This document shows positions 4,969 to 36,523 of a stretch of DNA of 36,523 nucleotides, piece after piece. The notes under the pieces were generated by a model. That model did not search any database, had not been told where the DNA came from, and saw only the letters and a list, made by a program, of their open reading frames with translations. The translations under genes were made by a program, and so were the position numbers. Numbering within the stretch: the stretch's first letter is position 1; each line of letters opens with the position of its first letter. This DNA comes from a virus: positions 1-36,523 of IMG/VR virus record IMGVR_UViG_3300048837_000513. One strand, 5' to 3'.

Positions 4969-5404
4969 CGTTTACCACCTCCCTCAACTTCTCAATTTGT
5001 TTTTCACGCGCAGCAGCATCAGCAGCAGCAGCAGCAGCATCAGCAGCAGCATCAGCAGCAGCAGAAGCAGAAGCAGAAGCAGAAGCAGAAGCAGAAGCAG
5101 AAGCAGCCAGCTCCTCTTTTGTCGACCTGCCGTTCGCAAATCGCTCGGCTACATCACAAGCGTTTATACTTCTAGGGTCTGGATTCTTAACCAGCTTCAA
5201 AGCCACACGAGCGCACCATACTGCAAAAAGCCTATTCGTTTTATCGTCGAGCAGTTTAGTGGCTACCCAAATACGATCAGCAGGTTTTGCTTTTTCGACA
5301 TTTAAAATATCAAGCAAAGTACCCGACCAATCTTCAGCGACAAAATCGCGCGGATTAGAACATGGATTTAAATCGTCGATGTCTTTTAGGGTGTAGGTTT
5401 TCAT
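4955..5404 (-). CDS. Early protein with an Ala/Ser and Ala/Asp low-complexity expansion
   Basis: A 149-residue protein. The non-repetitive part (residues 1-98) begins MKTYTLKDIDDLNPCSNPRD and contains DKTNRLFAVWCARVALKLV and a block resembling 'NPDPRSI.AC.VAE.FA.G..T.EEL', a layout I have seen in phage and prophage proteins that carry Ala-rich repeats. Residues about 99-130 are (AS)n followed by AAAD-type repeats; the last 18 residues are a charged helix. The repeat is encoded by seven exact AAGCAG hexamers and adjoining CAG/CAT triplets. Unit lengths are multiples of three, so copy-number change keeps the frame. The ATG overlaps the upstream stop (ATGA). The function is unknown. Confidence 0.65.
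   Translation of the reverse strand: MKTYTLKDIDDLNPCSNPRDFVAEDWSGTLLDILNVEKAKPADRIWVATKLLDDKTNRLFAVWCARVALKLVKNPDPRSINACDVAERFANGRSTKEELAASASASASASASASAAADAAADAAAAAADAAAREKQIEKLREVVNDVAR
5012..5106. repeat. CAG-type triplet and hexamer microsatellite inside a gene
   Basis: On the plus strand, runs of CAG with scattered CAT (5012-5064) are followed by seven consecutive copies of AAGCAG (5065-5106). On the coding minus strand these read as Ala/Asp and then Ala-Ser repeats. Such tracts can change length by strand slippage without breaking the frame. Confidence 0.85.
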
Positions 5405-5772
5405 CGGGCTAATTCTTTTATGACTTTGTAGCCGCTGCCGTAGCCGCTGCCGTAGCCGCTGCCGCTGCCGTAGCCGCTGCCGTAGCCGCTGCCGTAGCCG
5501 CTGCCGCTGCCGTCGCCGCTTCCGTAGCTGTAGCCGTCGCCGTTGCCGTCGCCGTTGCCGTAGCCGTTGCCGCTGCCGTAGCCGCTGCCGCTGCCGTCGC
5601 CGCTTCCGTAGCCGTAGCCGTCGCCGTTGCCGTCGCCGTTGCCGTAGCCGTTGCCGCTGCCGTAGCCGCTGCCGTAGCCGCTGCCGTAGCCGCTGCCGTA
5701 GCCGTCGCCGCTTCCGTAGCCGCTGCCGCTGCCGTCGCCGCTTCCGTAGCCGTCGCCGCTTATCTTGCCCAT
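5401..5772 (-). CDS. Gly/Ser/Tyr/Asp repeat protein (YGSG and DGSG units)
   Basis: A 123-residue protein that is almost entirely repeats: after MGKIS come about 110 residues of Gly alternating with Tyr, Ser, Asp or Asn (units YGSG, DGSG, NGYG, DGNG), ending YKVIKELAR. No hydrophobic core is visible, so a disordered or glycine-loop structure is likely. Similar GDGYGSG repeat tails occur in phage and prophage proteins where they follow a globular N-terminal domain; here that domain is absent, so the gene may be a reduced form. Its start overlaps the upstream gene by 13 nt and its stop overlaps the downstream ATG (ATGA). The function is unknown. Confidence 0.6.
   Translation of the reverse strand: MGKISGDGYGSGDGSGSGYGSGDGYGSGYGSGYGSGYGSGNGYGNGDGNGDGYGYGSGDGSGSGYGSGNGYGNGDGNGDGYSYGSGDGSGSGYGSGYGSGYGSGSGYGSGYGSGYKVIKELAR
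5431..5760. repeat. Minisatellite of GCCGCTGCCGTA-type 12-bp units with an 84-bp higher-order duplication
   Basis: The tract is built from GCCGCTGCCGTA and variants (GTC, GTT, TCC at the changed triplet). Within it, 5521-5604 is repeated head-to-tail from 5605 with a period of 84 bp and one mismatch (5529/5613) over the next 70 or so bases. It encodes the Gly-rich protein on the minus strand. Confidence 0.85.
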
Positions 5773-10835: not shown

Positions 10836-11277
10836 CAAAAATTACGCGGCAAAGATTTCTGGGTATGGTGCAGGAGTCGGGAAAAATAGCAACAAGGGTT
10901 ATTTTTTCATTGACTTTGATGTCGATTTTGAAACTGTTCGCTGGATGGGAAGCCCAATTAAAGGCGACGGGAATATAAACGATATGTTCCTGGATCAGAT
11001 CGCCGAAGCTGGATTTGATGGCGAGAAACATGCTTTAGCAGATATCGCGCTCGGCAAGGGCAGTAATGTCCTGAATGAAACTGGCGACGTTATGGTGCGG
11101 GTCGCGCAAAAAATGGATGGAAAAGGCGAAATGGTTTGGTCGATAGCCTGGATCGGGGAAACGAAAACTATTTCTAAAGATGAATTAATGAAAGCACTTC
11201 CTTCAAATATTAATGACATGCTAAAGGGCCGATTCAAAAAGGCCAAGCGCGATGCCTTGGGTGATGTTCCATTTTGA
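10819..11277 (+). CDS. Possible single-stranded DNA-binding protein
   Basis: A 152-residue protein from the ATG at 10819; an in-frame GTG 12 nt earlier is an alternative. Beta-rich segments (KGYFFIDFDVDFETVRWMGS, GDVMVRVAQKMDG, MVWSIAWIGE) would suit an OB-like fold. The last residues, GDVPF, resemble the acidic DDIPF tip of bacterial SSB proteins. It lies between the annealing protein and the helicases, where phages often place their SSB. The family is not recognised from motifs alone, so this is inference. Its stop overlaps the helicase start (ATGATGA). Confidence 0.45.
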   Translation: MALQNNKNYAAKISGYGAGVGKNSNKGYFFIDFDVDFETVRWMGSPIKGDGNINDMFLDQIAEAGFDGEKHALADIALGKGSNVLNETGDVMVRVAQKMDGKGEMVWSIAWIGETKTISKDELMKALPSNINDMLKGRFKKAKRDALGDVPF

Positions 11278-12680
11278 TGATACTCAGACCATATCAGAAT
11301 TTAGCTATCGAACAGGTTAGCGCGGCGTTTCGTCGGAAGACACGCCGCGTTATCCTGCAAATGCCGTGCGGTTCTGGCAAGACTGTAATATTCACAACCA
11401 TGATGCAGCGTGCGCTCGCGCGGGGTGTGTCGTCGCTAATGGTTGTTCGCGGAAAAGAATTAGTCCACCAGACCGCGCGGCGTTTTGATTTTCCCGTCAA
11501 CATCTACCAAGGCGCAAACACGTTAGAAGCGCAATCAAACGTGACCATTGCCAGTATAGCAACGCTCTATTCGCGGCGACATATCCCGCCCGCCAGGCTT
11601 GTGATTGTTGATGAGGCGCACCTTTCATTTGGCGAAAGCTATGAATGGCTCTTAGAGAATCTACCAGCCGATACATTCATCGTAGGAACGACCGCGACGC
11701 CGTATAACCGCAAGGGTTTCAAGCATATCGCTGATGAGATAATTTATCCGATTTCGATAACAGAACTACAAGAGCAAGGCTACCTTGTGAAGGGTCGCTA
11801 TTTCTCTGTCGAACGGCCTGACCTTTCGCAGATTAAAATGGTAGGCGACGACTTTAATAATGGCGATCTTAGCCGGGTCATGCAAACCAGACTTTGCGCC
11901 GATACTGTTTCCTCATGGCGAAAACATGCGGAAGGTAGACCAACAATAGTTTTTTGCGTGAACGTGAGACACGCCGAAAAATTGGCAGCACTTTATAATT
12001 CAAGCGGCATAAAAACCGCAGTGATAGAAGCCACAACACCGGACGACATGCGGCGACAATTATTTTCTGACCTCGCCGCTGGCAGAATCAATTGTCTGTC
12101 TTCGGTCGGCGTGCTGACTACTGGAGTTGATATCCCCGAAGTCTCTTGTCTTCAGATCCTTAGACCAACCATGAGCGAAGCCCTTTGGTTTCAAATGCTG
12201 GGACGCGGGACGCGCACAGCGCCAGGGAAATCTGATTTTTTAGTTCTCGACCATTCAACCAATACCGAACGATTTGGTTTTATAGAAGATGAGCGCAAGG
12301 GCGATTTAGAAGCGCAACCAAAAATATCTCGGCGTGAGGCTCAGATAAATATCTCGACCTGCACAAAATGCGGCGCAATATATCGCGGGCGCGGCGCGTG
12401 CCCTTGCTGTGGTGAAGAAATAGAAATCATCAAAAAAGAGCCTGAAATAAAGCCAGGTGAGTTAAAAGAAATCAAGCGTCAAGAGGCGCAAATGAAAAAA
12501 ATAAATTATCTTGTAAGTAAGGCTTTACAGCGCGGATATAAACGTGGTTGGGTTATGTATCAATTGCAAGAAAAATTCGGTGTTGATGCAGGGATGGAAC
12601 TTTACCGGAAGCATGTTAAAAATATCTCATGGCCGGATCAGCCGCAAAACATAACCGACTCGTTACCGAAATCCTTTTAG
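11274..12680 (+). CDS. SF2 DEAH-type helicase with C-terminal zinc knuckle
   Basis: A 468-residue protein with the full set of superfamily 2 motifs: Walker A GSGKT (33-37), DEAH (113-116), TAT (140-142), motif V TTGVDIP (282-288) and motif VI QMLGRGTR (307-314). It resembles phage DNA helicases such as those replacing or loading replicative helicases, and UvsW-like repair helicases. After the helicase core, four or five cysteines (363, 366, 376, 378, 379; CTKCG and CPCCG) form a zinc knuckle. The charged tail runs to the end. The start overlaps the previous gene, and its last 52 nt are shared with the nuclease gene. Confidence 0.9.
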   Translation: MMILRPYQNLAIEQVSAAFRRKTRRVILQMPCGSGKTVIFTTMMQRALARGVSSLMVVRGKELVHQTARRFDFPVNIYQGANTLEAQSNVTIASIATLYSRRHIPPARLVIVDEAHLSFGESYEWLLENLPADTFIVGTTATPYNRKGFKHIADEIIYPISITELQEQGYLVKGRYFSVERPDLSQIKMVGDDFNNGDLSRVMQTRLCADTVSSWRKHAEGRPTIVFCVNVRHAEKLAALYNSSGIKTAVIEATTPDDMRRQLFSDLAAGRINCLSSVGVLTTGVDIPEVSCLQILRPTMSEALWFQMLGRGTRTAPGKSDFLVLDHSTNTERFGFIEDERKGDLEAQPKISRREAQINISTCTKCGAIYRGRGACPCCGEEIEIIKKEPEIKPGELKEIKRQEAQMKKINYLVSKALQRGYKRGWVMYQLQEKFGVDAGMELYRKHVKNISWPDQPQNITDSLPKSF

Positions 12681-12980: not shown

Positions 12981-13736
12981 ATGCGCTTCATTTCCCGCAG
13001 CAAGTCGGATTCCGATTTGCTTTCAAATCATACTCAATTTTCTACCTGCACAATTAAAACCCTGAGAGACATGGCAGAGGTAGCGACAAAAAAAGTTTGG
13101 TCGCCGATCATTTGGAAAGATGGCGCGCGCAACACGAAAAATTATTTGTTCTCCGATTATTGTGTTCTCGACTTTGATAGCTCAATGCAATTGCCAGAGG
13201 CTTATGATTCATTCAAGGATTACCAGTGTTTCATCGCCACAACAGTAAGCCACCAAAAGCGAAAGAATGGACACATAAGCGACCGCTTTCGTGTTGTGAT
13301 CCCTTGGGAGAAAAGAATAGACGACGTAAATCTATACCGCGCGAACATGGAAAATCTAATTAATCATTATGAATCAGATGAAGCATGTAAGGACGGCGGC
13401 AGGCTTTACAAGCCGTCACCTAAAATCGTTTTTGTAAATGAAGGCGATCTCATGCCGGTTAAAAATATAAAGCTGAAAGAGTATGCCGATAATGTGATAC
13501 CGATGGCACCTCCTAAGATCATGCCAGGATGGTTGCAAGACAAAATAAATCGTGGCGTATGCGGTAATGAAGGACGCAATGCAGCGGGGTTTAAAATCGC
13601 GGCTGATTTATACAGACATGGTTATTCAGAAAATGAAGTGTTTTTCTGGCTGAAAAAATCTTTCGGCGTAAATGAATTAAATGATAGGGAGCTAAAAAGC
13701 ATAGCGCGGAGTGCAAAAAAAATCACGGCCAGGTAG
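12981..13736 (+). CDS. Archaeo-eukaryotic-type primase (AEP) protein
   Basis: A 251-residue protein. The catalytic pattern of AEP primases is visible: two aspartates in VLDFD (Asp64, Asp66), SHQ (90-92), and DRFRVVIP (101-108). The C-terminal part (GNEGRNAAGFKIAADLY then SENEVFFWLKKSFGVNELND) looks like a primase C-terminal helical domain. The helicase is encoded by a separate gene 46 nt downstream, so the usual primase-helicase fusion is split. An intrinsic hairpin terminator overlaps the stop codon, which could reduce helicase expression. The start ATG has a TAGG box 8-9 nt upstream. Confidence 0.7.
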   Translation: MRFISRSKSDSDLLSNHTQFSTCTIKTLRDMAEVATKKVWSPIIWKDGARNTKNYLFSDYCVLDFDSSMQLPEAYDSFKDYQCFIATTVSHQKRKNGHISDRFRVVIPWEKRIDDVNLYRANMENLINHYESDEACKDGGRLYKPSPKIVFVNEGDLMPVKNIKLKEYADNVIPMAPPKIMPGWLQDKINRGVCGNEGRNAAGFKIAADLYRHGYSENEVFFWLKKSFGVNELNDRELKSIARSAKKITAR

Positions 13737-13782: not shown

Positions 13783-15051
13783 ATGGCAGGAATCAAGGCA
13801 GCAATCAAGCCCAGTAAAGACAAATTAACTAAGGCGATTTACAACGCCATGGAGGGCAAGGGGACATTTAAAGCGACGTTCAAATATAAGCTAAAAACTG
13901 CATCGGTAAATGGCACAAGAATGGTATTCCGACAGCAAGAGTGCCTTGAATTAGTGCCAGCCAAAAGAGATGAGCTAATAGCTGCGGTCACTAATTTCTG
14001 TGAGGAAATGTCTGAAGTTGATCCAAGGTATTTTGTCAAGAAAAAAGAGGCAGAGGAAATAATTGAAAGCTGGAAATACAGAGGCGATGCAATAGAAGTA
14101 AAAAACCCTATTCTGTTTAAAGATCAACTTGGTTACTGCTTTCGTCGCGTGCCGTTTTACCCCGAGCCGGGGGCAACGCCTACCTGGGATAGCGTCATTA
14201 GCCGAATGACTAACGCCGACGCCTTCAAAATGTTCATTGCTTCAATGTTCCATACTAACTCTTACATGCAACAATACATCTGGATTTATGGCGAAGGCGG
14301 TGAGGGCAAAGGGTCAATTGGTCGCTGGCTACAAAAGGTTTTTGGGCCTACATATTTTTCTTTATCATCAATCCCAAAATCACAATTCTGGAAAGCCAGC
14401 CTAGTCGGAAAGCGGTGCGTTGTTTTTTCCGATTGGTCAAGTTCGTATTTCGTCACGGGCGGCGAGTTTAAAACCATGGTCGGCGGCGACCCTCAAAGTA
14501 TCGAAGAAAAATACGAGCGACCATACAACATGATTTTGAGTTGCAAATATATTTTCTTCTCGAATGAACGCCCTGCTGTGGCTTCTGAGGCTTCGGACAT
14601 GCGTAGGTTGATCTATTGCCATATCGACCCTATCGACGAATCTAAAAAGGAATACGACGCTTTCGAGGCCAAATTGTGGGACGAATCGGCGGCGTTTATC
14701 CATTCCTGCCTGGCCTTATACCGTGAAAATTGCCCAAATCATGAGCCGATTCCATTTGACCATGGCCAAAGTAAAAACCTGGCCGCTGAAAATGAATCGG
14801 AATATGAGGGATTGCTGCAAGGATCGTTCAAAGAAGGTGGCTACGTCACGTCGGCGGAGATGGTTGATTGGTACAGACGGCGGGGGTTGCAGCGTCAAGA
14901 AAAAATAGAATGGAAAAAATTCCTACAACGGCGCGGGATTAAGTACGGCTCAGTAAAAAGAAGCGGTAAGGTATTTGATGCATTTAAAGGTATCTCTTTT
15001 AGGGACGATTATTCGACCGTTGACGCTGAAAGCTTACTGGAGCAAAGGTAA
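13783..15051 (+). CDS. SF3 (D5-like) replicative helicase
   Basis: A 422-residue protein with superfamily 3 motifs: Walker A GEGGEGKGS (170-178), Walker B CVVFSDW (212-218), and a motif C with a sensor asparagine (IFFSNERP, Asn261). The N-terminal 110 residues resemble a D5-N-type region, and the C-terminal helix-turn-helix-like part includes MVDWYRRRGLQRQEKIEWKK. These proteins melt origins and unwind DNA, usually with an AEP primase; the likely partner is encoded immediately upstream. The last codons (AGG TAA) lie inside the first copy of the downstream iteron, so the origin region begins at the stop codon. Confidence 0.85.
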   Translation: MAGIKAAIKPSKDKLTKAIYNAMEGKGTFKATFKYKLKTASVNGTRMVFRQQECLELVPAKRDELIAAVTNFCEEMSEVDPRYFVKKKEAEEIIESWKYRGDAIEVKNPILFKDQLGYCFRRVPFYPEPGATPTWDSVISRMTNADAFKMFIASMFHTNSYMQQYIWIYGEGGEGKGSIGRWLQKVFGPTYFSLSSIPKSQFWKASLVGKRCVVFSDWSSSYFVTGGEFKTMVGGDPQSIEEKYERPYNMILSCKYIFFSNERPAVASEASDMRRLIYCHIDPIDESKKEYDAFEAKLWDESAAFIHSCLALYRENCPNHEPIPFDHGQSKNLAAENESEYEGLLQGSFKEGGYVTSAEMVDWYRRRGLQRQEKIEWKKFLQRRGIKYGSVKRSGKVFDAFKGISFRDDYSTVDAESLLEQR

Positions 15052-15437
15052 GTATGTTTCAGAAAAGCGCCTTAAAATAGCTTAGAATCTTTTAACCAAT
15101 TTCCTTAAAATACAAGTTATCCACAGGGCGGATTCTCATAAATCTGCCTTTTTTTTAGGCAAAAATTAGGGTCGAGACATGCTTACTAAATAACAGATAA
15201 GCACCAAGGTAAGTATGTCTAAAAAAAAAAAAATAAATAAAATCAATCATGTAAGTATTTAAGTAGGTAAGTATGTTTACCCTTTTTCTTTTAAATATAG
15301 AAGAAAGAGAATAAATAAGAGATACAAGATATATATATATAGGAAAAAAAAATATATATACTTACCTGCTTACTGTGTTGATATTATTTATTATGATTAA
15401 AAAATAAACAGACATACCTCGGAGGAAAATACTTACT
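15046..15437. repeat. Iteron family AGGTAAGTATGT
   Basis: Exact direct copies lie at 15046-15057, 15207-15218 and 15265-15276, with a partial direct copy GTAAGTAT at 15251-15258. Inverted copies lie at 15358-15367 (ATACTTACCT), 15429-15437 (ATACTTACT) and, with one change, 15177-15187 (ACATGCTTACT). Spacing is irregular. Copies occur at both edges and within the gene-free segment. Confidence 0.75.
15117..15125 (+). promoter_or_regulatory. DnaA box TTATCCACA
   Basis: This is a perfect match to the bacterial DnaA-binding consensus TTATNCACA. It is the only such copy I noticed in the region. Its place among the iterons suggests host DnaA helps open the phage origin. Confidence 0.6.
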
Positions 15438-15439
15438 AA

Positions 15440-15748
15440 ATGGACGAAAAAATTTTTCAAATCGCAGTCGATTGGATCAAAGCAAACATCGTTACCGCCA
15501 GTGGACTTGCGGGAAAAATTGCTAAAAACCCTGTCTGCGTCCGTTGGGCAATTGAAACAGCAACAGGATATTTGCCGACCGCCGAGGTTTTATTTAGGGC
15601 CCTGGACCATTGCGGCTACCCGCCGGTTGACGATCTTGGGTGCCGCCTCATCAAGTTCGGAAATTCAAACGCCTGGCTGGCATATAACGGCCAGAAACCG
15701 AGCGCCGAGGATGTGCATAGACACACCACGGCGCGGACGGCAGATTGA
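15440..15748 (+). CDS. Hypothetical protein at the origin edge
   Basis: A 102-residue protein (MDEKIFQIAVDWIKANIVTA...). GGAGG lies 14 nt upstream of the ATG, longer than usual spacing, and an inverted iteron covers the gap. Residues 18-45 (NIVTASGLAGKIAKNPVCVR) are helical with several small residues, then WAIETATGYLPTAEVLFRAL. Possible DNA-binding helices are visible, but no known domain. An origin-associated or regulatory role is suggested only by position. Confidence 0.6.
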   Translation: MDEKIFQIAVDWIKANIVTASGLAGKIAKNPVCVRWAIETATGYLPTAEVLFRALDHCGYPPVDDLGCRLIKFGNSNAWLAYNGQKPSAEDVHRHTTARTAD

Positions 15749-15811: not shown

Positions 15812-15840
15812 CCCAAAGTCCGATACCTTCAATAAATAAC

Positions 15841-15857
15841 CCAATTTTGTAAATTGG
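15841..15857. repeat. Hairpin CCAATTT-TGT-AAATTGG
   Basis: A perfect 7-bp inverted repeat with a 3-nt loop lies 26 bp before the small membrane gene. There is no T run after it, so a terminator is unlikely. An RNA structure in the late leader or an operator are possible. Confidence 0.4.
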
Positions 15858-15882
15858 CGCACCGGCCCTGAGGGTAAACGGG

Positions 15883-16023
15883 ATGATTGAGATCGCAATT
15901 CTCTGCTTTACGCTTTTCAATTCTATTCTTTCCGTACTCACCCTCCTAATGCTCGCACCTATTGTGGCCGAGAAACCTACGTCTCTACAGAATGAAAGAC
16001 CGGAGAAAAGGCAATGCTTATAG
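15883..16023 (+). CDS. 46-residue predicted membrane peptide
   Basis: The ATG follows AGGGTAAACGGG. The frame codes MIEIAILCFTLFNSILSVLT, then LLMLAPIVAEKPTSLQNERP and a basic end. The first 30 residues form one hydrophobic membrane segment. The stop overlaps the start of the ParB/methyltransferase gene by 10 nt, as with other small genes here. It is the first gene of the late operon. The function is unknown. Confidence 0.5.
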   Translation: MIEIAILCFTLFNSILSVLTLLMLAPIVAEKPTSLQNERPEKRQCL

Positions 16024-17297
16024 AATCCGTGCCCATTGGCAGCTTATTGCCAGATCCGTCAAACGTAAGGCGTCACGACGATAAGAACCTGGCAGCGATC
16101 AAAGCCAGCCTCAAACGCTTTGGACAAAGAAAACCGATTGTCACGCGAAATGGAATTGTCATTGCCGGTAATGGCACCTTGGCAGCGGCTCAGGCGCTCG
16201 GCTGGTCTGAGATCCAGGTAGTAAGGGCCGACGACATGACAGCGACCGACGCCGCAGCGTTCGGGATTGCAGATAACCGCACGACTGACTTGTCCACGTT
16301 CGATATGGAAGCCCTCGGGTCAACACTCCAGGCGCTCAGGGAAGATGGAACGGATTTGGCAGATATTGGTTTCGATGTCGGGGATTTGGATGACATTATA
16401 CCAGACACCGAAATAACAGGACTAACCGACGAAGACGAAGTGCCTGAGAATGTAGAGACTCGGTGCAAGCCCGGTGACTTGTGGACGCTTGGGAATCACC
16501 GTTTGCTTTGCGGCGACTCCACAAATATTCAGCATGTTGAGAGACTGATGAATGGCGAGAAAGCGGATATATGCTTTACCAGCCCGCCTTACGGGCAACA
16601 GAGGTGTTATGGAGTCGGAAGGGTAAACGATTGGTACGAATTACTTGCGGGAGTTTTTAGCATTTTGCCTGTCTCAGATGCCGCGCAAGTTTTGGTCAAT
16701 CTTGGCTTGATACACAAAGATAACGAGTGGCATCCCTACTGGGCGCAGTGGCTCGAATACATGCAAAGCATGGGCTGGCGGCGTTTCGGCTGGTATGTAT
16801 GGGATCAGGGCCCCGGTTTACCGGGCGATTGGAATGGTAGGTTGGCCTCCGCGTTTGAGTTTATATTTCATTTCAATAAGAAATCCATCCAGGCAAACAA
16901 AACTAAAGCTTGTAAATATGCTGGTACACAGAACAGTGGCTCTGGCCTTCGTGGTAAAGACGGCGTAGTGGGCGGGTACACCGCTATATCTGACACGGTA
17001 CAAGCGACAAAGATACCTGATTCGGTTATCCGCGTCATGCGTCATAAAGGCCGTGGCATAGAGTGCGAGCACCCAGCAGTTTTCCCTGTCGATCTTGCGA
17101 CAGAGTTGCTCGAGGCGTTCAGTAAAAGAGCGGAATCGGCTTACGAACCTTTCCTCGGCTCCGGCTCAACTCTAATCGCGTGCGAAAAGACAAACCGCAA
17201 GTGCTACGGCATGGAAATAGACCCTAAGTATTGTGACGTAATTCTTGAGCGATGGGAAAAATTCACAGGAAAAAAGGCGGCACTAAGTGACAGATAA
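16014..17297 (+). CDS. ParB-like N-terminal domain fused to DNA methyltransferase
   Basis: A 427-residue protein. Residues 1-110 form a ParB/Srx-type domain (VPIGSLLPDPSNVRRHDDKN, then VIAGNGTLAAAQALGW). The rest carries class-beta methyltransferase motifs: motif IV TSPPYG (189-194) first, and the AdoMet-binding motif PFLGSGS (379-385) near the C-terminus. The family includes N4-cytosine and N6-adenine enzymes; the TSPPY variant is more usual for N4-cytosine, but the base cannot be fixed from sequence. Such fusions are common just before phage terminases, probably to mark phage DNA or protect it from host restriction. It overlaps the small terminase by 11 nt. Confidence 0.85.
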   Translation: MLIESVPIGSLLPDPSNVRRHDDKNLAAIKASLKRFGQRKPIVTRNGIVIAGNGTLAAAQALGWSEIQVVRADDMTATDAAAFGIADNRTTDLSTFDMEALGSTLQALREDGTDLADIGFDVGDLDDIIPDTEITGLTDEDEVPENVETRCKPGDLWTLGNHRLLCGDSTNIQHVERLMNGEKADICFTSPPYGQQRCYGVGRVNDWYELLAGVFSILPVSDAAQVLVNLGLIHKDNEWHPYWAQWLEYMQSMGWRRFGWYVWDQGPGLPGDWNGRLASAFEFIFHFNKKSIQANKTKACKYAGTQNSGSGLRGKDGVVGGYTAISDTVQATKIPDSVIRVMRHKGRGIECEHPAVFPVDLATELLEAFSKRAESAYEPFLGSGSTLIACEKTNRKCYGMEIDPKYCDVILERWEKFTGKKAALSDR

Positions 17298-32471: not shown

Positions 32472-34540
32472 CTTTTGCGACTGAAAAAGAAAAGCCAGCG
32501 AGTGAGCGGTTTATGCTCATTCGTATAGGTATAAGGAAGGAAATAACTAGCTCTCTTGTGCATGTCGGCGGCGGGATCTATCGCTATGCCTATACAAAAT
32601 TTCCGGGTGAAGTCTATAGAAGTTACCCATCAGATTTGGCTATTAACACGCCAAGCGACACAAAATTAACAAAAGTCTTGAGCTACCCTCCAGCGACCAA
32701 TGAATACACATTAGACGAATCAGAAAATGAAATTTTCGTAGAGAAGTCCAGCGGGCTTTATAAGTTTTTCACTGTTGAGTATCTTCATTTTACAGGGACG
32801 GCACAAAAAGACGCACCGCGCGACCCGACAACGGCAGAGACTTCTGTGCCGTGGCTGGCGCTTGTTTCATCATATCCATCGGTCACAATGTCCATCGCAG
32901 ACATTACTGCCGGTGTATTTTCTATTTCAGATACCGAAATCGAATTGGTAAACGATGGGAACTGGATCGCAGAGTATACAAGTGGAAGTTCGACTCTGTA
33001 TCGACAAGAGGTAAAGATTTGGCTTTGCATTAATGACAGTAGCAATTCAAAGCTGGTCTTTACTGGTGAGACTGCATCAATTGCAATATCAAACGGTAAG
33101 GTGAAGATAAATGTTCTCGACTCATTTAACAAGCTACAAAAAAAAGCACAATTCCAAACCATAAACAGTAAGTCGGTAGCCAATGTAGATTATTATTACC
33201 CGTCTTACACAGTTTCTTTCCGTCCACAAGACGACGGGAAACCCTTTTTAAGGCACTTGCAAAAGGTAGGCATCCATGATTTCGGTTTGAATGTCGGGAC
33301 AATTTCAGAGACTTCAAAATTCTTTAACGGCATTTACGGTTCAGGATTTCAGCCTTTTGTTGGCGCTTTTCGCCGAGTATATTGTGGGTTCCTCAACGCG
33401 AATGACGCATCTCCGACAACTCTTAAGGTTCAAAGTATAGGCTCTGTCACGTCAACAAGCACATCCGGCCTGATAAGGACTTTCAACGTAACGTCGCACA
33501 GCAATCTCTACTATGGGCAGAATGTGGAGTGGGTTGAATCCTCGGTAACGTACTACGCGGTGATTGTAGAAATCGTCTCTTCTACTCAATTTCGCGTTTT
33601 CGGTACTTACCCTGCATCGACTTCTAGCGTATTTACGGCAAGAAAGGCTTTTGCCCTTTATCTTCGTTCCGGTAATACCACAGTAAACCTAATTCAAAAC
33701 AGAGATTACACTTTATCGGACAGCGGCGGGTTTATTGTCGCGAGTTTATCTGCGACTTTCGAAAGTAATTTTTCGTCGATATTCACGCCAGACCCATTCG
33801 ACCCCAATAAAGATACTTTTGCATATTATGCGGTATCTAATGAAGATTTAAATCATGCGAACGTGCTTAAAAAACTGGTAGAAGCGTCGGGCATGGCAAC
33901 GAATTCGGCGTCATTCTCCGCTGCCGCCAGCGCGCTTGTCGTGAATACATGCTTTACAGTCCCATTTATGGGCAGCGGTGATATCGGCACATATACTGAC
34001 TACGCCAGTAAAATACTTGAGAGCACGGGCGGGTATTTGACGGTAAATGATTCAAACGAAATAGAGTACAAATTTTTCGAGGCTCTTTCGCCTACGATTA
34101 CACTTGAGAAGAAAGACTATAGCGATTTTTCCGCTTTGGTCGAATACCAGGATATCTATTCAACAATTGAGGCGACTAATCCACACTTCAACAACTCTCA
34201 ATTGTTGTACTCATCGTCTGGCGGCGACACTTCCAGGATTATAAAAATAGACGAAAGCAGCGAGCTAATTTACCGCGCCGGAAAAACAAAATATATTACT
34301 CATGTTCTTGAGAGCATGAGCGGGTCAATGGATAGAGTTTCTAAATTAAATTCGGCAAGGCGTGCGAAATATTCTTTTACTGTTGCCGCGTCAATTTCTG
34401 ATTTAAAGTTGGGCGATCAGTTGAGAATTTACAATGATAAATTGCCGAACAATCAGCCATATGTAGATTGTATGATAGTATCGAAAACGATAAGTGCATC
34501 ATCATCGTCATTCGAGGCGATAGACTTGCCTAATTTCTAG
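32468..34540 (+). CDS. Tail-tip / baseplate hub protein (putative)
   Basis: A 690-residue protein with a TTG start that overlaps the previous stop (TTGA). It is mostly beta structure: PWLALVSSYPSVTMSIADIT, LYRQEVKIWLCINDSSNS, YTDYASKILESTGGYLTVND and AARRAKYSF-like strands near the end (KLGDQLRIYNDKLPNNQPYV). Size, position before the fibre, and a final part resembling hub beta-barrels (SDLKLGDQLRI) fit a Tal or gpJ-like tail tip. The family is not certain. The next gene starts 9 nt later. Confidence 0.6.
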   Translation: MTFATEKEKPASERFMLIRIGIRKEITSSLVHVGGGIYRYAYTKFPGEVYRSYPSDLAINTPSDTKLTKVLSYPPATNEYTLDESENEIFVEKSSGLYKFFTVEYLHFTGTAQKDAPRDPTTAETSVPWLALVSSYPSVTMSIADITAGVFSISDTEIELVNDGNWIAEYTSGSSTLYRQEVKIWLCINDSSNSKLVFTGETASIAISNGKVKINVLDSFNKLQKKAQFQTINSKSVANVDYYYPSYTVSFRPQDDGKPFLRHLQKVGIHDFGLNVGTISETSKFFNGIYGSGFQPFVGAFRRVYCGFLNANDASPTTLKVQSIGSVTSTSTSGLIRTFNVTSHSNLYYGQNVEWVESSVTYYAVIVEIVSSTQFRVFGTYPASTSSVFTARKAFALYLRSGNTTVNLIQNRDYTLSDSGGFIVASLSATFESNFSSIFTPDPFDPNKDTFAYYAVSNEDLNHANVLKKLVEASGMATNSASFSAAASALVVNTCFTVPFMGSGDIGTYTDYASKILESTGGYLTVNDSNEIEYKFFEALSPTITLEKKDYSDFSALVEYQDIYSTIEATNPHFNNSQLLYSSSGGDTSRIIKIDESSELIYRAGKTKYITHVLESMSGSMDRVSKLNSARRAKYSFTVAASISDLKLGDQLRIYNDKLPNNQPYVDCMIVSKTISASSSSFEAIDLPNF

Positions 34541-34549
34541 GGGTAAACA

Positions 34550-36523
34550 ATGGCCGGTGAAATTAAAAAAGTTCAATTCGCAGAGGGTACAAACGTATCG
34601 ACTCCTGCCGATGTTCCCTTCGGCCCTGCCGATTTCGTCGGGATCTTGCCGACGACAAAAGGCGGCACAGGTGTAAACGGCTCGGCGACGTTTCCTACAT
34701 CTGGGACGGTGGCGACGACTGCCGATATCACGGCTGCCTTTGAGGGCAAGAAGTTTAAAGACCCTGTAGATGTAGCGACAACTGCAAATATCACCCTTTC
34801 AGGTGAGCAAACGATTGACGGGTTTTTGACTTCTGCCAGTCGCGTCCTGGTTAAAAGCCAGAGCACGCCGTCGCAAAACGGCATTTACGTTTCAGCGGCG
34901 GGCGCATGGTCGCGGTCGAGTGATGCTAACGCATGGGATGAATTGACGACGGCAGTTGTCGCCGTGGAAAAAGGCACCCTTTATGAGGATACAGTCTGGC
35001 TTTGTATCTCTGACAGCGGCGGCACCCTCGGTAGCTCTGCAATCGCCTGGGAGCAACGCGCGGGATCTGGCGCAGTAGATTTGACTTCGGACGTAACTGG
35101 GGTTTTGCCTATCGGGAGCGGCGGCACCGGGTCTGGTACGGCCTTGGGCGGGTATGACGCATTGTCCCCCGCAGCAAACAAGGGTGATATCGTAAGTCAC
35201 GACGGATTGACTGCTTCCGCTTTGGCAGTAGGGGCCGACGGTAAAGTGCTAGTTGCCGATTCGGCAGAATTGACCGGCCTTAAATGGGACGACGTGCCTG
35301 CGCCGTTGACGACGAAAGGCGATATTTATACCCATGATGCAACGGTTGCGGCCAGGCTTCCAGTCGGAGCAAATGGGCGCGTACTCGTGGCAAATAGCGC
35401 GACAGCGACCGGCCTGGAGTGGCAAGCGTCGACGGGTGGCGGTGATACTTCATTTAGAATCGAATCCATCGCAGCAAACGTCGCGACGATAAACGGCGGG
35501 TATCTAAAGCTGAATGATGGGCGCGAACTGGCAACATACAACTCGCCTACCTATGGCGTAGATATTACTGTAAACCTGCTGACGCTAAACGGTACAGCGG
35601 CGTCTCAGGTTCATTACCTCTACATCGATTTGAATACACTCGGTGCAGAACAATCTATTGGTATCGGTTCCAGGCGCGGCTATCAGATAACGCAAGCAAA
35701 CTTCGTGTTGCTGACCGCTTACCCGACCGCTGTAAACCTGTCCAGGTATGTCCCGATCGGTACGGCTCTAGGCACTGGCGGTGCCTATAGTAGCTCCGAC
35801 TTCACTACCTTTGCAGCCAAGGTTCACGCGAATAATCCGGTAGCCGTCAACCCCAAAGTCTATTCATTGTCGCAAGCGGTAGGCGCGGTGGGGAGTGCTT
35901 CGCAGATTCAGGCGGGGCATGTTCTGGGGGCGGCTTCGTTTCCTTCGGATATTACGACTAGCAAATACAGCTTTTTCAATCTTGCGGCTGATTCTCTGGA
36001 CGACAATACAGCGAACGCGAAAGACCTGACTAACAACGGATCGACAGCGTTTACGGGCACCAACATTTTCGGCGGATCAAATCTTGCCGCGAATCTTGAC
36101 GGCGTGAATGACAACTTTAGTTCCACAAATGCCTTTTTCAATCCGGGCAATGGTAAGTCATGGGCATGTGGCGGGTGGTTTAAGGCTACAGATTGGACGC
36201 CGGTATCCCCTGCTTTGTTGTTTGCTCAAGAGGCATCGGCTTCAGATCGCGGTTTCAAATTAGAAAACTCAACAAACGGCGATCTTTTGTGGCAAGCAAC
36301 AAACTCCGCTTCCGCCATTGACGCTACAGTCACCATACCCAATCCCGGATTTACTAATGGGACATGGCATCATTTGGCCATGGTGTACGATTTTTCAACT
36401 CTGTTACTTAAAGCATATATCGACGGCAAAATTGTAGGTTCGACCACGCTCGCTAATCAGCGGGCGGTTACGTCAGCTACCTTTAGAATTGGGGCACAAC
36501 GCGCTGGCTCGGAGTTTTTCACA
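34550..36523 (+). CDS. Tail fibre protein, 3' truncated, with LamG-like domain
   Basis: The frame is open for exactly 658 codons to the window end. After the N-terminus (MAGEIKKVQFAEGTNVSTPA) comes a module with VDVATTANITLSGEQTIDGF, LVKSQSTPSQNGIYVSAAG and a linker ending AIAWEQ, common in phage fibres. Two 36-residue KGDI repeats follow, then a beta-rich shaft (VHYLYIDLNTLGAEQ). The last 170 residues (SLDDNTANAKDLTNNGSTAF, GVNDNF, WACGGWFKATDW, TWHHLAMVYDFSTLLLKAYI) form a concanavalin/LamG-type domain, likely for sugar binding. The fibre may continue at the left window edge. Confidence 0.85.
   Translation, partial: MAGEIKKVQFAEGTNVSTPADVPFGPADFVGILPTTKGGTGVNGSATFPTSGTVATTADITAAFEGKKFKDPVDVATTANITLSGEQTIDGFLTSASRVLVKSQSTPSQNGIYVSAAGAWSRSSDANAWDELTTAVVAVEKGTLYEDTVWLCISDSGGTLGSSAIAWEQRAGSGAVDLTSDVTGVLPIGSGGTGSGTALGGYDALSPAANKGDIVSHDGLTASALAVGADGKVLVADSAELTGLKWDDVPAPLTTKGDIYTHDATVAARLPVGANGRVLVANSATATGLEWQASTGGGDTSFRIESIAANVATINGGYLKLNDGRELATYNSPTYGVDITVNLLTLNGTAASQVHYLYIDLNTLGAEQSIGIGSRRGYQITQANFVLLTAYPTAVNLSRYVPIGTALGTGGAYSSSDFTTFAAKVHANNPVAVNPKVYSLSQAVGAVGSASQIQAGHVLGAASFPSDITTSKYSFFNLAADSLDDNTANAKDLTNNGSTAFTGTNIFGGSNLAANLDGVNDNFSSTNAFFNPGNGKSWACGGWFKATDWTPVSPALLFAQEASASDRGFKLENSTNGDLLWQATNSASAIDATVTIPNPGFTNGTWHHLAMVYDFSTLLLKAYIDGKIVGSTTLANQRAVTSATFRIGAQRAGSEFFT
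35180..35422 (+). repeat. Two tandem KGDI-type fibre repeats
   Basis: Codons 35180-35287 and 35315-35422 each encode 36 residues with the pattern KGDI-x-x-HD ... A-x-L-x-VGA-x-G-x-VLVA-x-SA ... TGL-x-W, separated by 27 nt. The DNA has diverged, so the duplication is old. Confidence 0.75.

Follow-up and report, generated by a model that had tools for sequence, protein, structure and literature searches.

A candidate iteron-type replication origin directly behind the SF3 helicase gene of an uncultured phage lineage

The window considered here is the whole of IMG/VR virus record IMGVR_UViG_3300048837_000513, a contig of 36,523 nts in which no terminal repeat was found. Its replication genes follow one another in the order helicase (11274-12680), VRR nuclease, PriCT-1-type primase (12981-13736) and SF3 helicase (13783-15051). 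The primase, a prim-pol-like protein of 251 amino acids encoded on the plus strand (PHROG primase, E=7.6e-14), is the proposed partner of the SF3 helicase; it is 41% identical to the syntenic protein of a related phage, L006, and Sfi21 has the same gene order. The SF3 helicase (422 amino acids, plus strand; Pfam DUF5906, E=5.9e-18; PHROG primase/helicase families) has GEGGEGKG as its Walker A motif and is the proposed initiator. It had no match at all to phages by tblastn, and single-sequence searches of viral contigs, genome contigs and phages returned no close relatives. The next open reading frame, of 102 amino acids (15440-15748, plus strand), is without Pfam, PHROG or phage match, has no DNA-binding domain detectable with Pfam or PHROG, and found no close relatives in single-sequence searches of viral contigs and phages. 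The gap between the two, 15052-15439, is non-coding with a GC content of 0.28, against about 0.48 in its flanks, and no known RNA or tRNA was found in it.

Further 3′, 16014-17297 encodes an N6/N4 DNA methyltransferase with a fused ParB-like domain; its best phage match, in Acidithiobacillus phage AcaML1, is 44% identical. The stretch 15838-16020 of the window is near-identical to 7458-7640 of L005 (terminase 80%), DNA which there lies just upstream of the methyltransferase gene. All that is further upstream differs, and in L005 consists of a DNA polymerase/SNF2-type replication module on the opposite strand. This comparison of the window with L005 points to a sharp module-exchange junction behind the putative origin and the 102-residue reading frame. 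Because its replication module is a different one, the equivalent region of L005 is not comparable and L005 was rejected as a comparison locus.

Three exact copies of the 12-mer AGGTAAGTATGT are present on the plus strand, at 15046-15057, 15207-15218 and 15265-15276, together with about six degenerate or inverted copies within 15046-15440. The SF3 stop codon TAA (15049-15051) is inside the first of them. Between the first and second exact copies is a degenerate iteron, AGTAAGCATG, on the minus strand (15178-15187). The third is the last unit of a plus-strand tandem, GTAAGTAT-TTAAGTAG-GTAAGTAT-GT (15249-15276), in which the iterons recur at 8-bp spacing over 15251-15274. On the minus strand GTAAGCAG-GTAAGTAT forms an inverted tandem at 15356-15375, also at 8-bp spacing (over 15358-15373, with GTAAGCAG at 15366-15373), and is followed by the degenerate inverted iteron AGGTATGTCTGT (15408-15419, minus strand). 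The last iteron, the inverted TAGTAAGTATTT (15427-15438, minus strand), sits between the ribosome-binding site CGGAGG and the ATG at 15440. The first-pass annotation had described three exact repeats with partial and inverted copies in a gene-free AT-rich segment, the first copy holding the helicase stop codon and the last placed in the spacer before the next ATG, and every one of these elements is there. Control of the neighbouring genes by the repeats is plausible from their position.

With one mismatch allowed, AGGTAAGTATGT gains a single site (15356-15367, minus strand), and sites with two mismatches start at 15249 (plus) and 15408 (minus). At two mismatches or fewer the 36.5-kb window has seven sites, six of them within 15046-15419, against 1.3 (maximum 5) in shuffles, which for all repeat statistics were dinucleotide-preserving. 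A search of the whole IMG/VR record for AGGTAAGTATGT with at most one mismatch gave nothing beyond the copies in the segment. That the repeat might be equally common elsewhere, a point which the first-pass annotation had raised, can be dismissed, with the core GTAAGTAT occurring exactly six times in the segment and nowhere else in the 36.5 kb. The looser GTAAGYA is found eight times in the segment and nine times in the remaining 36.1 kb, and the density of the iteron core is about 80-fold that in the rest of the contig. Scored for repeated 8-mers, the 400 bp that follow the SF3 stop reach 41, where the shuffle mean is 2.8 (maximum 13). It is true that the spacer is 72% AT with runs of A and T, and repeats arising by chance in such low-complexity DNA had to be considered. 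This reading was rejected on the shuffle scores, which are far exceeded, and on the core density; repeats at the same position in many other phages also count against it, and its probability is vanishingly small. In a contig-wide 8-mer repeat scan the segment is outscored only by GC-rich low-complexity repeats at 5.0-5.8 kb. These tandem repeats (5010-5107 and 5428-5758; units GCAGCA and 12-30 bp of GTAGCCGCTGCC type) are the strongest repeat signal of the contig and overlap leftward reading frames which likely encode low-complexity proteins.

The iterons surround an AT-rich core (15285-15364), the proposed unwinding element, within which duplex stability has its contig-wide low for stretches of both 60 and 80 bp. 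The 60-bp minimum, 15305-15364, is at 0.974 kcal/bp (contig mean 1.406, sd 0.10), and the 100-bp minimum of the contig (15309-15408) overlaps the core. One of the iteron blocks which flank this minimum is mostly in plus orientation and the other wholly in minus: four of five iteron cores to the left are plus and all three to the right are minus, an asymmetry that is only suggestive, since p=0.047 by itself. A pRN1-type large stem-loop origin devoid of iterons was rejected, as the iterons dominate here and the folding of the segment DNA, better than that of shuffles (z -3.4), is due to long-range pairing mostly of inverted iterons and AT tracts. An intrinsic-terminator-like hairpin with a T run (15125-15157, plus strand) closes off the replication gene cluster.

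It had also been proposed that the segment has a cluster of DnaA boxes and that DnaA takes part. The cluster reduces to one exact box, TTATCCACA at 15117-15125 (plus strand), the sole exact copy in the window, where about 0.005 would be expected in the segment. Participation of DnaA has this one box as its basis, and most compared loci lack it. Since an exact box is present in only two of 15 comparable regions, those of the window and of P4, it may be incidental. Replication of P4 is DnaA-independent. DnaA as initiator was rejected on the grounds that the box is single and is not a shared feature, and a DnaA-dependent (oriC-like) origin was set aside likewise, there being one box in place of a cluster. 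Nor is the cumulative GC-skew minimum at the segment, as had been anticipated; it is near 10 kb, where gene orientation flips, and because skew tracks gene strand it is not diagnostic for an origin.

The C-terminal part of the SF3 helicase is predicted to be a winged helix. In an AlphaFold model of residues 318-422, made with an alignment of the window protein and four relatives, residues about 338-407 have the topology H-E-H-H-E-E with a core pLDDT of 84-91 (a single-sequence fold of the entire protein, with a pLDDT of 45, was unusable). Foldseek gave RFX5 on the nucleosome as the best PDB match of the model (prob 1.00, with a weak E of 0.033) and an SF3 helicase protein as its best viral match (prob 1.00, E 9e-4). 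A profile of the C-terminal ~100 residues of 14 SF3 proteins matched RFX1 (1dp7, E=0.0039), RFX5 (8zjr, E=0.023) and primase C-termini. An HMM built from other SF3 proteins did not find the winged helix of the window above shuffles, and hhalign of the window C-terminus with that of P4 alpha alone was not significant, so the assignment of this domain rests on structure prediction. The C-terminus of P4 alpha, a winged helix, is a solved domain (1ka8), and it is through this equivalent domain that alpha binds origin repeats (PMC4234260). Both the predicted domain and the P4 precedent bear on the suggestion that the origin is real but that host DnaA or another phage protein is its initiator, with the SF3 helicase merely being loaded. 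In plasmid RSF1010 the iterons are bound by a protein of their own, RepC (as described in PMC4234260), and an exact box at 15117 is hardly expected by chance. However, the box is solitary and rarely has an exact counterpart in comparable regions, while the SF3 protein itself ends in a putative DNA-binding fold of the type which P4 alpha uses. An initiator other than the SF3 helicase is thus unlikely, and the SF3 protein is the preferred candidate, with the 102-residue protein or a host factor as less probable binders of the iterons.

Relatives of the phage lack the exact repeat and have other iterons at the same place, so that of the expectation that the repeats would recur there it is the location which stands. 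L006, found via terminase relatives (terminase 55%), shares the replication cluster, its SF3 protein being 31% identical, and directly past its SF3 stop are three copies of ATATACCG, an AT core and CGGTATAC/CGGTATAT, at 8-bp spacing. In L052, which has the nearest SF3 relative found (40% across the helicase core), the stretch from the SF3 stop to the next gene carries GTTACTAGGTTACTAG, a TA-rich core and GGTAACCTGGTGACCCAGTAACTG, as judged by inspection and not by shuffle statistics. The compact locus of L051, a 30% relative, is without iterons. On these comparisons the exact repeat of the window is lineage-specific, and what is shared is position and layout. Other repeats in these phages are in reading frames: one with alanine/aspartate-rich repeats in L052 (269-919), and a pentapeptide-repeat frame with about 40 copies of 15-bp units in L051 (5662-6621).

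A survey of 28 SF3 genes compared the repeated-8-mer score of the 400 bp past the stop with 200 shuffles; the genes were taken at even steps down the BLAST ranks, with selected references added, and are not a random sample. Since non-coding iterons can exist only where there is a gap, the counts show what fills gaps and not the frequency among phages: where the gap measures 200 bp or more, 14 of 14 loci (the window, Sfi21 and P4 included) are repeat-rich at p<=0.005, the floor, and one of the ten with a known gap below 100 bp reaches that level (L042, in GC-rich coding DNA), with L046 at p=0.02. Four loci have no defined same-strand next gene; among them Microcystis phage Mel-JY03 scored positive, and in BPP-1 the 400 bp behind the SF3 gene had no iteron enrichment over shuffles. 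Several SF3 phages have no iterons in this position, so the layout, though common, is not universal. Dense arrays (AGTGAAACA, ACTGCAACA, GGTAACAGCA) occur elsewhere in such phages, in or near non-coding DNA, at about 10050-10500 in L031, about 11600-12000 in L028 and about 10900-11350 in L024 (just 5′ of the SF3 gene), and are possible displaced origins. The iteron GTAACAGA of Paenibacillus phage Wanderer also spans the helicase TAA stop. Among 512 five-mers, GTAAC ranks fourth or higher in six of 16 regions (noticed post hoc), the window having GTAAG instead. Across SF3 lineages, then, repeat sequences differ, and position and layout recur.

This recurrence has consequences for the idea that the repeats are operators at which a regulator, the 102-residue protein or a repressor, controls transcription of the following gene and of the last part of the replication operon, any origin being elsewhere. 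Repeats overlapping the spacer before the ATG at 15440, the terminator inside the segment and, weakly, a promoter-like TTGATA-N16-AAAAAT at 15378-15405 are what such an arrangement would have. However, that promoter-like site is the only one, fewer than in shuffles, and nine copies over about 390 bp around a stability minimum exceed typical operators. Behind other SF3 genes unrelated repeats occupy the corresponding position, an annotated origin among them, and the 102-residue protein is without a detectable DNA-binding domain. Operators with an origin elsewhere are accordingly quite improbable.

In the reading preferred here, 15046-15438 is probably the phage's own theta-type origin, directly behind the gene for its initiator; the SF3 protein would bind it, the AT core would be melted and a separate primase would serve it. 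It rests on direct observations: the anatomy of the segment, iterons that are enriched in it and unique to it, the stability minimum between their blocks and a layout that recurs 3′ of other SF3 genes. With the predicted winged-helix fold, and a position and layout like those of Sfi21 and P4, the initiator-bound phage origin of the first-pass annotation is well supported. By analogy with established knowledge of P4 alpha and with the downstream-binding model for pRN1 (PMC4234260), the SF3 helicase would bind the iterons (core GTAAGTAT, in tandem 8 bp apart) through its C-terminal winged helix. The oppositely oriented iteron blocks around 15285-15364 would load helicase rings facing the core, and these would melt it. 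The separate primase (12981-13736) would then prime and host polymerase extend.

The segment provides a concrete candidate origin and initiator for an uncultured phage lineage whose replication proteins have no close sequenced relative. The wider regularity is of more interest than the single origin. As the Sfi21/P4 layout recurs in very diverged phages with different iterons, origins should be predictable in many unannotated phages, and the code by which the winged helix recognises its sites is open to comparative study. A general rule, to which slightly less than even weight is given, may be that SF3 initiators, whether of phages, satellites or plasmids, carry along an origin fused 3′ of their own gene, its inverted iterons placed round an AT core and drifting with the winged helix around GTAA(C/G). 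If so, the helicase gene by itself would show where the origin lies, and co-variation of iteron with winged helix would be expected.

Among known systems, pRN1 requires the region downstream of its prim-pol/SF3 gene for replication, and in the proposed model its replication protein binds DNA lying 3′ of the gene that encodes it (PMC4234260). pRN1 and phage BIP-1 resemble the window, as read here, in having the cis-acting region just past the gene for a replication protein of the prim-pol/SF3/winged-helix type (PMC4234260), but have a large stem-loop and no iterons where the window has iterons and an AT core. The P4 record places crr, with type 1 repeats (ori type 1), directly 3′ of alpha and past the alpha terminator. 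As in the window, short iterons (GGTGAACA, in tandem at 9 bp) directly follow a primase-helicase gene with a terminator in between, one exact DnaA box is present, and the protein has an SF3 helicase domain. Alpha, however, is one polypeptide with a bacterial-type primase, whereas the window has separate genes for a PriCT-1-type primase and the SF3 helicase, and P4, unlike the window, divides function between crr and a separate ori1. In Sfi21 (NC_000872) an 'origin of replication, 302 bp non-coding region, phage inhibitory sequence' is annotated at 34487-34784, with its start in the last part of the SF3 gene (33367-34515); this element has been described as origin-like and inhibits phage (PMC6356513). 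The genes before it are those for an annealing protein, helicase, SSB, primase and SF3 protein. The window shares the order annealing protein-helicase-primase-SF3, though with its RecT gene on the opposite strand and a VRR nuclease inserted, and in both the segment in question immediately follows an SF3 gene that has primase and helicase genes before it. AGTAAC iterons in both orientations surround the AT core of Sfi21 as iterons do that of the window, and in each case the first overlaps the TAA stop and the last abuts the ribosome-binding site of the next gene. The iterons themselves differ, AGTAACTA/GTAACCG in Sfi21 and GGTAAGTAT in the window. The segment is best read as an origin of the Sfi21/P4 kind with a private iteron sequence.
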